Positions 41,641 through 45,683 of a DNA stretch of 64,000 nucleotides are shown in pieces. How positions within the stretch are numbered: position 1 is the stretch's first letter; every line of letters starts with the position of its first letter. The position numbers were made by a program, and so were the translations under genes. The notes beneath the pieces are model-generated. The model was not told the origin of the DNA. It saw only the letters and a list, made by a program, of their open reading frames with translations, and did not search any database. Origin of the DNA: Moritella sp. (lineage in GTDB: Bacteria; Pseudomonadota; Gammaproteobacteria; Enterobacterales; Moritellaceae); assembly GCF_013215705.1 (NCBI RefSeq), contig NZ_JABSQR010000017.1, forward strand, positions 50,689 through 114,688, read 5' to 3'.

Positions 41641-41988
41641 AATCCCCCCAAATTTATCGATAAAGCGCTGTTTAATCAAAACTGTAGTGTGCTTTATTAA
41701 TTATTGTTAAAGACTAACGCCTTCGCCAGATTAATACTGTGGAGTAGGGGGAAGTTTAAGGGATTCGGGTGGTAGAGCGAAGTAAAACTTTACGTAACTG
41801 GAACTGGGTAAATAATAAATGGGATTCAATTAGATACTCTCTGCAGTTATCAATTTACATTGGCTGTAAGCGTATGATTTAAAGTGTTTTTAATTTACAA
41901 TGTTGGAACGTTGTTGTGTTGTTAATCAAAACGCTATTTCAGACCTTATTCTGTGATTTTTTGTTTCTTTTCAAGCCGGAGCCACCTC
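41641..41988. other. divergent intergenic region upstream of the SIR2-STAND gene
   Basis: These 348 bp lie between the patatin and SIR2-STAND genes. I find no gene, repeat or RNA structure. It should hold both promoters. Confidence 0.5.
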
Positions 41989-44900
41989 ATGAGCCAATTT
42001 CATAAAACTCTTATTTCAGCACTTAAGGATGGTACTTTGCTACCCCTTGTTGGTGCTGGAGTCTCAATGTCGATCAAGGATACTGAAGGCAAAAGGGTTT
42101 TTCCTAGTTGGCCTGAATTGCTAAACAATGCTGCTATTCAGGTGGGAGATTCTCTCGAACCGTTGATTAAAGGTTTAGTTACAGCAAATGAACTACATAC
42201 AGCTGCGGATTTAGCAAAAAAAAACTTGCCTGCTTCAGAGTGGTTCAAGTTTATAGAATCTCAATTTAACATTGAATTACTTGCATGTGATAAAAATAGT
42301 TTTGCATTACCTAAAGCTATTTGGAAGTTAAGCTCTCAAATTATCACCTTAAATTATGATAAAGTGATGGAGTTCTGTTCGGATTCTAGTAAAACGCAGA
42401 TTATCAAAAATTACTTGCTTGCAGGTATTAATAAAATGCAAAGCGTTAGTGATGATAAAATGATATGGCACTTGCATGGACATGTCGATGAGCCAGACAA
42501 ATTAGTTTTAACACCTGATGGATATAACCGATTATATGATGACAACACAGAGTATCTTGCTGCATTAAAAGCTTTAAAAACAGTGCTTGCTACACGCAGC
42601 CTAATTTTTATTGGCTGCAGTTTAAATGATGTTGAACTATTGGCTGAGTTAGCCGCTCAACATGATTTATTTGAAGGTAATACCCAACTACATTTTGCAT
42701 TTGTTCATGAAAATGAAAAAGATGTAATTAAAGAAAGGTTAAAGAATTTCCCAAGTATAATACTCATCCCTTTTTCCGATTTTGGTCAACCATTCGTTGA
42801 TTTAATCAACGAACTTGCAGTACATAAAAATACAGCCCTAAATGAACCAGATACCGATGAAGAAATTACGGTTCAAGCTGCTAATCAACCAAATGACGAT
42901 TTAATACGACAAGAACCAAAAATAGCTTACTTAAGTGCAAATCCATTAGGCACATATTGTGACTTTATCGCGTTAGACAATAAGTTAGAAAGACGCCTAC
43001 CATATGATCTGCATTCTTTTCCACTGACTGAAGCTTCTCTACAAGATCTTACCGGGTATGACTATCTTGTATTCGCGTGTCGAATCAAAAATAATAAGTT
43101 ATTAATTGAAAATGAATGGTTGGGCAGAGAGCCCCTAACAATTGAAGAGCTAGAAGCTAACCTAGAATTAGACGATCTAAAAGGTGTGATTGTTATTTGT
43201 GATAAGAATCCAGCTATGGATGCTCTTGAGAATATTACTTTACCTATACTCTTTATACCTGAATTAGATATGCCAGATAATTGTTTAGATAAACTTTGGT
43301 TTCAATTATTTAAAAAACAATCGTTTACAACATTTGAAAGTACTTGCTTACTGCATAATATAAGTAAATTTGACTTGGGGATACCTGTAAAGCAATTCAA
43401 AGGTAAGAAGCAGGCGGTTATTCAAGAATTACCAAAAGAAATCTCAAAAGAAGAAATAAAGAAGTTTATAGGTCGCAAGCAGGACTTAGAAGATTGTAGT
43501 CGAGCGCTTTATGATGCGAGTATCTATAAAGAATGTTTGACCATCCAAGGGACAGGAGGGCTAGGTAAAACAACGCTAGTTAAAAAACTTGCGTTTGAGT
43601 ATAGCCAACGACAGAATTTTGGTCAAAGTATTACTTTTATTGATTGTGAAAACCTGGGTAATTATCAACAATTTCATCGTTTCATTGCTGGTGCTTTTGA
43701 ATTAGAAGATGCCATTGATTTTATAGCTCATATTGAGAAAAATAAGGATCTCCAAGAAGGAGACCGCTTAATTATAATTGATAATGCAGAGAGCCTGCTT
43801 CAATTAACAGAGAAAGATAAAATATGTAGACTGATCGGCAGTACACTTGAGTATGCGACGATTATAGTCACTAGCCGTGAACCATTAAATATCACTTCAG
43901 AAAAAATATTTATGCTTCGAGATTTTGTAACTGATGAAGCTCTTGTATTATTTGAAGAAAAATCAAATCGAAACTTTACTGAGCGCGAACGTGAATACTT
44001 AAGACAGCATATTCTCAAAGAGTTGCTTGATAATAATCCATTAGCTATTTCATTGGTCGCTAGTTCTTTGGTTAAAGGAAAAAGTCTTGAAGCCTTAAAG
44101 TCTGAACTAGAAGATAATTTCTTTGAGTTGACGAAAATTCAACAAGCCTCATTTACAAACCCTGAAGAACGTAACATTGATAGAAAATCTTCAATTTATA
44201 ATAGTATTGATTATTCTTATCGGGCATTACATGAAACTCAGAAGGATGCATTAATTAAACTATCGTATTTTCCTGATGGAATTGATCTTGAGAATTTTAA
44301 AAAGTTGACTGAAAATGATACTGAAGCTCGAGGTAAGGCTGCGATCAAAGATGCGACAATTAAAGTTCTACAAGATAAATCATTAGTGCAAACCAACAAC
44401 AAACATATTCGCTTGCATCCTTTAGTTGTAAGATTTGCGAGGGGGGTAGTTAGGAATGAAGAAGAAGTAACATATCTAAAAATTGTATTTGATTATAATG
44501 CAGCATTAGCTTCATCACTTAATCAACTTGGCAGATCTGGTGATGTAAAAAAACGAGCTAAGGCCGATATGATATTTGATGCACAGCTCAGGAATATTTT
44601 AACGTCAGTAGAAAATATAAATGAGAATTATGACGATCACACAGTTGCATATTTTTTAAATTTAGTCAGTTTGTTAGTATTTAAAGTTGGTGCTTATAGT
44701 GAGTTTCGAGATGCTTTATCAAGGATTTCATCTATTTTTAATCGGTCAAAAAAGTTGAACTTATATATAAAAATACTCTTGCTTACATTGAGATACTTTT
44801 CAGGTGACTTTAATCGTGCCTTGTATGAATTAAAAGAGCTTCTTTCTATTGATGATTGGTGTGCTTTTAATGTATCTGATGATATTGAATATGGTTGTTG

Positions 44901-45600
44901 GAATACTGCTTCAGCAATATACTTAAATGAGGGGTATGAGATGGAAACTATTCTTAACCATTTTGATAAAAAAAATAAAATGTCTAGTTGGTATAATCCC
45001 CAATTAAGTCATTTGGGTGTATTTGATGCTGACTATGCTGGTTCTGCATTACAAGATGAATCTAGCATTGATGTCAAACTTGCTTTAGGTCAATTAAGTA
45101 TAAAAGAATTTAACGCTGCTTTTGAACATATTCACCCTAAAAATCATCTGTCCATAGCGAACTTTTTGTTTATAAAATCCAAATTAGTACCTTTAAATAT
45201 TACTGAAATAGACTCGTTAGTTGTGGTAAACCCTTATACTCAAGGTATTAAATACCTACTGTATGCAGGACATTGTGATGATATAGAGCAAAGTAAAAAA
45301 TTTTTTGAATTGAGCTTACCTGAATTAATTCATATTAAGTTTTCTTATGTAGAGGCTCTTTATTTATATGCTAAATGGCTGAAAAAAAATAACTTGCCGA
45401 GTTTTGATGAAATTAATCAAGAAGGGGTCATGCTTTCAAAAGAATTTCATTATAGGTATTTACAGCATAGTTTTTTACAACTGACCTGTGAAGTTGAAAG
45501 TGTTTATAATGAAGCTGATTATCCACTTCCAGATGGAATAGATTTTAGTGGACATATTCAAAATTACATCAAGTATTGTAAAAGAGAAATCAAAAACTAA
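41989..45600 (+). CDS. SIR2-STAND (NB-ARC-like) NLR-type antiphage protein
   Basis: The 1203-residue protein has four parts. (1) SIR2 domain, residues 1-280: LVGAGVS (20-26), TLNYD (120-124), HLHGH (161-165) with the catalytic-type His, and IGCSLND (about 207-213); such domains destroy NAD. (2) A Rossmann-like middle domain, about 310-465, resembling CHAT with Cys404 kept but Arg365 where the catalytic His would be. (3) A STAND ATPase: Walker A GTGGLGKTTL (521-530), Walker B LIIIDNAE (594-601), VTSRE, NNPLAISL, then a winged-helix-like part and HPLVVRFA. (4) A helical C-terminus, about 820-1203, the likely sensor. Family knowledge (Avs5-like) suggests NADase suicide upon phage sensing. It is AT-rich and single-gene. 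The start at 41989 has GGAG 8 bases upstream. Confidence 0.85.
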   Translation: MSQFHKTLISALKDGTLLPLVGAGVSMSIKDTEGKRVFPSWPELLNNAAIQVGDSLEPLIKGLVTANELHTAADLAKKNLPASEWFKFIESQFNIELLACDKNSFALPKAIWKLSSQIITLNYDKVMEFCSDSSKTQIIKNYLLAGINKMQSVSDDKMIWHLHGHVDEPDKLVLTPDGYNRLYDDNTEYLAALKALKTVLATRSLIFIGCSLNDVELLAELAAQHDLFEGNTQLHFAFVHENEKDVIKERLKNFPSIILIPFSDFGQPFVDLINELAVHKNTALNEPDTDEEITVQAANQPNDDLIRQEPKIAYLSANPLGTYCDFIALDNKLERRLPYDLHSFPLTEASLQDLTGYDYLVFACRIKNNKLLIENEWLGREPLTIEELEANLELDDLKGVIVICDKNPAMDALENITLPILFIPELDMPDNCLDKLWFQLFKKQSFTTFESTCLLHNISKFDLGIPVKQFKGKKQAVIQELPKEISKEEIKKFIGRKQDLEDCSRALYDASIYKECLTIQGTGGLGKTTLVKKLAFEYSQRQNFGQSITFIDCENLGNYQQFHRFIAGAFELEDAIDFIAHIEKNKDLQEGDRLIIIDNAESLLQLTEKDKICRLIGSTLEYATIIVTSREPLNITSEKIFMLRDFVTDEALVLFEEKSNRNFTEREREYLRQHILKELLDNNPLAISLVASSLVKGKSLEALKSELEDNFFELTKIQQASFTNPEERNIDRKSSIYNSIDYSYRALHETQKDALIKLSYFPDGIDLENFKKLTENDTEARGKAAIKDATIKVLQDKSLVQTNNKHIRLHPLVVRFARGVVRNEEEVTYLKIVFDYNAALASSLNQLGRSGDVKKRAKADMIFDAQLRNILTSVENINENYDDHTVAYFLNLVSLLVFKVGAYSEFRDALSRISSIFNRSKKLNLYIKILLLTLRYFSGDFNRALYELKELLSIDDWCAFNVSDDIEYGCWNTASAIYLNEGYEMETILNHFDKKNKMSSWYNPQLSHLGVFDADYAGSALQDESSIDVKLALGQLSIKEFNAAFEHIHPKNHLSIANFLFIKSKLVPLNITEIDSLVVVNPYTQGIKYLLYAGHCDDIEQSKKFFELSLPELIHIKFSYVEALYLYAKWLKKNNLPSFDEINQEGVMLSKEFHYRYLQHSFLQLTCEVESVYNEADYPLPDGIDFSGHIQNYIKYCKREIKN

Positions 45601-45626
45601 ATTGATTGGAAATAGTTAAATAAAAT

Positions 45627-45660
45627 ACAATAAAGCCAAGAAAATGCTTGGCTTTATTGT
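45627..45660. terminator. strong hairpin terminator after the SIR2-STAND gene
   Basis: A perfect 14-bp stem ACAATAAAGCCAAG with a 6-nt loop. It lies between two convergent genes. A near-copy with the same flank follows proS at 46297-46322. Confidence 0.75.
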
Positions 45661-45683
45661 TCACTTAATCGAATTTAGGTGAA

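Follow-up and report, generated by a model that had tools for sequence, protein, structure and literature searches.

The gene at positions 41989-45600 on the forward strand of a 64,000-nucleotide stretch of Moritella sp. DNA (the window) is an open frame of 1203 amino acids with an ATG start, whose product presents, in this order, a SIR2 domain, a middle domain, a STAND NTPase of the NB-ARC type and a TPR-like superhelix. The protein is probably an NLR-like immune sensor (STAND, NB-ARC) that acts on its own, most likely against phage, and in which a predicted pseudo-caspase would serve as a constant adaptor. Pfam recovers SIR2_2 and NB-ARC, both above their cut-offs, and has no match over residues ~250-490. 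Good PADLOC matches are confined to the SIR2 part (LmuA and ThsA models), with three weaker ones in the NTPase, and NCBIfam yields only NB-ARC/TPR proteins, all far below cut-off. An earlier reading of the DNA made without database searches (the sequence-only reading) had proposed a SIR2 effector, a STAND ATPase and a helical C-terminus, a proposal upheld by the two Pfam domains and, for the C-terminus, by the AlphaFold2 (AF2) model. The full-length recurrence of this layout in many genomes, together with the confident model of the middle domain, indicates that it is more than a chance arrangement. The features of the gene are as follows:

41989..45600, + strand: whole gene, SIR2 - pseudo-CHAT - NB-ARC STAND - TPR-like superhelix (reading frame, Pfam, full-length relatives)
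41978..41981, + strand: GGAG, likely ribosome-binding site for the ATG at 41989 (sequence read)
41989..42858, + strand: SIR2 effector, residues 1-290, with Pfam SIR2_2 at 117-248 (Pfam, PADLOC LmuA/ThsA models, PDB relatives KomC/ThsA/FAM118B)
42352..42354, + strand: SIR2 N122, aligning with ThsA N112, invariant in 42/42 (PDB sequence alignment, family rows)
42475..42477, + strand: SIR2 H163, aligning with ThsA H152, invariant in 42/42 (PDB sequence alignment, family rows)
42901..43395, + strand: middle domain, residues 305-469, predicted caspase/CHAT fold without the catalytic dyad, or pseudo-CHAT (AF2, structure comparison, profile comparison, residue counts)
43081..43083, + strand: R365, at the CHAT catalytic-His position (profile alignment, residue counts, n=46)
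43201..43203, + strand: D405, at the CHAT catalytic-Cys position (profile alignment, residue counts, n=46)
43459..44103, + strand: NB-ARC type STAND NTPase, residues 491-705 (Pfam, motif counts)
43549..43572, + strand: Walker A GTGGLGKT, residues 521-528 (sequence, motif counts)
43768..43785, + strand: Walker B LIIIDN, residues 594-599 (sequence, motif counts)
44104..44589, + strand: ARC/winged-helix region, residues 706-867 (limits placed by analogy with the NB-ARC layout)
44590..45597, + strand: C-terminal TPR-like superhelix, residues 868-1203, probable sensor (AF2, VIA-align)

The middle domain and the CHAT dyad

AF2 gives a confident model for the middle domain, and comparison of this model with known structures points to a caspase-like fold over residues ~305-469, in line with the CHAT-like domain that the sequence-only reading had placed between the effector and the ATPase. 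In its predicted structure the domain is a caspase/CHAT fold that lacks the His-Cys dyad. In the profile alignment R365 falls on the CHAT His, as had been claimed for an Arg in place of the catalytic residue; the alignment stops at C404, one residue before the CHAT Cys, and D405 takes the Cys position only if it is continued gap-free past that point. Among 46 members position 365 is occupied by Lys (26), Arg (5), Gln (5), His (4), Asn (3) or other residues (3), and position 405 by Asp (30), Asn (8), Glu (4) or others (4) and in no case by Cys; also absent is the Gly found next to the His in CHAT. C404 itself, formerly taken as the equivalent of the catalytic Cys, has to yield this place to D405, and is a Cys in only 4 of the 46.

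A profile of the middle domain compared with an alignment of short-type CHAT domains scored above 100 of 100 shuffles. Several observations weigh against a straightforward relationship to CHAT. The same profile scored 13.9 against classic TPR-type CHAT (27 of 30 segments used), and the best of 60 shuffles reached 16.2. With E allowed up to 10, the Pfam CHAT model (PF12770) still matches no middle domain of the 46, and the 24 Pfam matches listed for them at that threshold are each confined to one member, weak and unrelated. A PDB sequence search with the profile returned 0 matches, and the weaker Foldseek rows include response regulators, lactate dehydrogenases and flavodoxin. The relation to CHAT therefore rests on the fold and on one CHAT subtype: of the expectation that the middle region would prove CHAT-like, the caspase-like fold stood and the match to the Pfam CHAT model did not. 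Outside the family, the middle-domain profile matched 1 of 269 genomes, namely the window's own, and the middle domain of locus L027 matched two plasmid records, both relatives already found.

A further difficulty comes from the closest relatives of the window protein (L012 and L013, inside the alignment used for the residue counts, and L002, outside it), in which His365 is accompanied by Cys404. This weakens any flat statement that the domain is dead in all members, and some residual or shifted chemistry may persist in this clade; their Cys lies one residue off the CHAT Cys position, and they lack the Gly that CHAT has behind its His. More generally, the middle domain might still be an enzyme, a protease or another hydrolase, with an altered site formed by Lys/Arg365 and Asp/Asn405, or by His365 and Cys404 in the nearest relatives. 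A basic residue at 365 in 31 of the 46 members and Asp, Glu or Asn at 405 in 42 would agree with this, as would the three His/Cys loci. However, all 46 are without a Cys at the Cys position, only four have the His, the Gly is lost and the window protein itself has an Arg at 365, and we regard a surviving activity as quite improbable.

The family and the exchange of its effectors

Patterns confined to the NTPase, run against 84,980 species genomes, gave 163 stretches, 82 of them with a relative, of which 80 were kept. The family is taken as the 48 loci (L012-L059) that match beyond the NTPase, the other 32 matching in the NTPase region only, and its members are found in Pseudomonadota, Bacillota, Bacteroidota, Thermodesulfobacteriota, Campylobacterota and Kiritimatiellota. 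The middle domain is present in 46 of the 48 (45 by alignment and L048 by a tblastn match from residue 311). The two loci without a visible one are L053, which starts at a contig end past it, and L058, whose start is close to a contig end and whose match reaches no further back than residue 372. The N-terminal effector is a SIR2 domain in 39 loci, a calcineurin-like phosphoesterase in three (L027, L036, L051), an intact CHAT in two (L026, L048), HD-CE in one (L054) and DUF4062 in one (L059), all seven non-SIR2 effectors scoring above Pfam cut-offs; in 2 of the 48, again L053 and L058, the contig-end start precludes an assignment.

In a maximum-likelihood tree of the NTPase and C-terminus (built on 46 of 50 rows after removal of four with short cores, and with L056 and L059 as long branches) the SIR2 label changes at least five times, each change being forced by well supported branches. 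Sister pairs with different effectors include L036 (phosphoesterase) with L055 (SIR2) and L054 (HD-CE) with L038 (SIR2). Among six pairs whose effectors differ, homology starts, in window-protein numbering, at residues 304, 307 and 311 in three and at 260, 275 and 290 in the other three. As the middle domain is kept in 46 of 48 loci through at least five changes of effector, it is part of the STAND chassis, and its role is probably that of a constant adaptor; the sequence-only reading had described it as inserted, but it is no insertion peculiar to the window protein. Three close Pseudoalteromonas alleles (L016, L017, L020) are mosaics in which the DNA identity of the SIR2 part falls to 54%, regains 94-98% at residues 286-324 in two of the comparisons (the third is already at 94% at residue 174), stays mostly at 88-100% over the pseudo-CHAT/NTPase core and gives way to a second variable stretch over the sensor (residues ~814-1047). 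From these sequences it looks as if effector and sensor had been exchanged by recombination.

A rather unlikely alternative, to be reckoned with all the same, is that the pseudo-CHAT has been integrated as a decoy or second sensor, which would imitate a caspase-like effector attacked or inhibited by invaders, with binding tripping the NTPase. Identity in two swapped sister pairs is 56% for the middle domain, 52-54% for the sensor and 77-78% for the NTPase; since their recent swap, the middle domain of these sisters has thus diverged at about the pace of the sensor, which counts against the adaptor and leaves room for a decoy or ligand-binding role. Decoy or peptide-binding roles are also proposed by Kaur et al. 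2020 (PMC7159879) for inactive enzymes of related conflict systems, and the Avs5 authors, in the main text of their paper, suggest that the region intervening between Sir2 and nSTAND3 may help ligand recognition (PMC12931631). Conversely, conservation over the 39 full SIR2 members is 0.436 for the middle domain, a value similar to SIR2 (0.45) and higher than for the helical region (0.393), the NTPase standing at 0.567. In the Pseudoalteromonas alleles, moreover, the variation falls on SIR2 and sensor and the middle domain is part of the conserved core, and its ratios of nonsynonymous to synonymous substitution (dN/dS) in four pairs, 0.28, 0.41, 0.16 and 0.13 (dS being saturated in two), show it to be under purifying selection. 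We prefer the constant adaptor.

Some members deserve mention in their own right. In cable bacteria (Electrothrix, Electronema; L026 6419-9673 and L048 6329-7801) an intact CHAT, with both His and Cys present, directly precedes the pseudo-CHAT, such that live and dead caspase-like domains occur within one receptor. The gene is interrupted by stops, frameshifts or an insert in L011 (5393-8156), L023 (7001-12143), L037, L048, L051 and L057, which may reflect a cost of keeping it or errors of draft assemblies. Two different members lie on two contigs of one Clostridium metagenome-assembled genome (bin.369; L024, L045), and the Paenibacillus hits are rich in members (L049 6998-10480 among them), nearly all with SIR2 and L036 with the phosphoesterase. 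No phage record matches the window protein, and 0 of 50 pattern stretches in viral contigs encode a relative.

Effector, NTPase and sensor in comparison with known systems

The SIR2_2 match (E 8.6e-23) is complemented by the first 304 residues recovering KomC, ThsA and FAM118B as PDB sequence relatives, in which the catalytic Asn and His align with N122 and H163 (the ThsA numbering being counted on the PDB sequence alignment). The sequence-only reading had picked H161 as the catalytic His; as the second His of HLHGH, H163, is the one that lies on ThsA H152 and is invariant, H161 is not the catalytic residue, and position 161 is a Lys in 26 of the 42 SIR2 rows. The SIR2 domain of the window protein is probably an NAD-destroying domain. 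It has the domain in common by sequence with NADases of the ThsA, KomC and FAM118B type, including the retained N122 and H163, but unlike them is fused to a STAND chassis.

The NB-ARC match, over residues 514-705, reaches 28.9 bits against a Pfam cut-off of 23.5. The Walker A (521-528) and Walker B (594-599) motifs lie where the sequence-only reading had located them, and have K527 and D598 invariant in 49 of 49 aligned rows. Beyond them WHD_ROQ1 gives a weak match at residues 790-823, below its cut-off. The C-terminal superhelix is modeled by AF2 with a predicted local distance difference test score of 94.7, resembles by VIA-align MalT domain III, APC5, Rap and AimR, and is the probable sensor. 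With an effector at the N-terminus and a repeat or superhelical region at the C-terminus, the layout is NLR-like.

The window protein resembles Avs5 (AVAST type 5) in being encoded by a single gene and in possessing a Sir2 domain of PF13289 (found here by Pfam), a central STAND NTPase and C-terminal helical repeats. It is nonetheless improbable that it is simply an Avs5 (SIR2-STAND) protein with the middle domain as a known, routine part. Avs5 is described, in the main text of the paper devoted to it, as having the same tripartite plan of Sir2, nSTAND3 NTPase and helical repeats (PMC12931631). Recognition of the jumbo-phage protein JADA, with loss of NAD, is a further Avs5 trait. However, the window NTPase is an NB-ARC, above that cut-off, whereas nSTAND3 (PF20720) gives only 17.8 bits against a cut-off of 27.2, and the PADLOC Avs5 model (PDLC02170) has no match to the protein at E up to 1 (this model matched 0 of 200 and 0 of 369 genomes, the control genomes likewise being without a match). 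The paper on Avs5 uses neither 'CHAT' nor 'caspase' anywhere in its main text, and describes what lies between Sir2 and nSTAND3 as poorly conserved (PMC12931631). The closeness to Avs5 suggested at first thus shrinks to a common general plan, beyond which the window protein differs by the exchange of effectors across its family and perhaps by its defined caspase-like middle domain. A search with nSTAND3 found matches in 10 of 299 genomes, and the recovered proteins are not SIR2-like, judging by their first residues alone.

In CHAT proteases (PF12770; e.g. the SAVED-CHAT protein of 8tl0) the CHAT domain is the effector, while the pseudo-CHAT lies between effector and NTPase, lacks the His-Cys dyad and is without a match to the Pfam model. 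For the MoxR-vWA conflict systems Kaur et al. 2020 (PMC7159879) report that ~70% of the effector-position caspase domains in vWA proteins are inactive, and suggest regulatory, peptide-binding or decoy roles for them. Like the pseudo-CHAT these are catalytically inactive caspase-superfamily domains of bacterial conflict proteins; as described there, they sit in the effector slot of multi-gene systems, whereas the pseudo-CHAT is a constant element between effector and STAND NTPase in a single-gene system. The DUF4062 effector of L059 recalls Swarozyc, for which this domain is reported to act in antiphage defence as an NADase of TIR-like type (PMC13174449), the difference being that L059 carries it on the pseudo-CHAT/NB-ARC chassis of the window protein. 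No description of a SIR2/pseudo-CHAT/STAND protein was found in searches of the open-licence literature. Inactive caspases in bacterial conflict systems are thus already known, and the same searches gave no precedent for one that is a permanent part of a STAND receptor whose effectors change.

Genomic setting and proposed mechanism

The gene has been gained horizontally as a single gene, in the following insert:

41766..45676, strand not applicable: insert between two core genes, approximate extent (comparison with same-genus genomes; the right border may be 45627, as compared with L139)

It is present in 1 of 11 same-genus genomes, and its GC content is 33.1% against 41.6% for the window. Seven of 295 same-order genomes match the window protein, only three of them beyond SIR2 (the window's genome, G242 and G175). 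The downstream neighbor, presumably an OB-fold-like small protein, occurs in six other same-genus genomes. In five of these it lies ~135-181 bp from a patatin-like gene, and in the sixth another gene follows; in the window the patatin-like gene flanks the gene on the other side from the small-protein gene, the gap between the flanks being 4,004 bp. A 14-pair terminator-like hairpin (window 45627-45660, minus strand) lies between the gene end and the downstream small gene, and a similar stretch is present at the empty site of L139. Plasmid relatives, annotated only as 'SIR2 family protein', are full length in Peribacillus and Hymenobacter, the latter preceded by a recombinase gene, and broken in Metabacillus.

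Of the 163 frames neighboring the gene at related loci 141 were scanned (22 being omitted as pieces of the gene itself, small frames or from near-duplicate loci). Among the PADLOC matches listed (best 25 of 111), the families found in more than one member are mad3 (5), mad8 (3) and AriA (3 and 2), and those in single members are DpdF, type I/II restriction, PDC-S01 and PsyrT. Among the best 25 of 164 Pfam families none occurs in more than 5 of the 141 frames. We take it that there is no constant partner gene and that the defence context is modest; the scarcity of defence-gene neighbors at related loci counts against an immune role. A host regulatory NLR-like protein, e.g. of the MalT type, is even so highly improbable: the effectors of the family (SIR2, CHAT, DUF4062 and a phosphoesterase matching PADLOC models) are of antiphage types, and the gene is patchily distributed within its genus as a clean insert.

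In the immune sensor that we favor, the C-terminal superhelix would recognize an invader molecule, and an ATP-driven rearrangement of the NB-ARC core would lead to assembly of the protein, ligand-triggered oligomerization being a trait of STAND NTPases. The pseudo-CHAT, with the invariable sensor-NTPase chassis on one side and a replaceable effector on the other, would relay the assembly signal, probably by homotypic contacts, and the SIR2 domains thus brought together would destroy NAD, such that growth stops. In animals catalytically dead relatives of caspases, such as c-FLIP, relay assembly by homotypic contacts. We infer the sensing, assembly, NAD depletion and adaptor function by analogy with STAND/SIR2 defence proteins such as Avs5 (PMC12931631), and the antiphage role of the window gene is likewise a putative one.

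As to origins, we tentatively consider it possible, at somewhat less than even chances, that the family descends from an NLR-like receptor with a live caspase-like protease; having lost its catalytic activity, the protease would have turned into a fixed platform for docking and assembly, to which SIR2, the TIR-like DUF4062, phosphoesterase and HD-CE were then added. If so, the two cable-bacterial receptors would be a built-in caspase/pseudo-caspase pair, comparable to caspase-8 with c-FLIP. Animal NLRs and Apaf-1 signal to caspases via small adaptor domains, and dead caspases tune live ones; the family described here would, if the proposal is correct, be a bacterial NLR family with a pseudo-caspase adaptor in place of a death-fold or EAD domain. 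It would offer a simple single-gene system for asking how one assembly platform activates chemically unrelated effectors, and would illustrate that a domain blank in sequence libraries can define an immune receptor, which may aid in finding members with unknown effectors.

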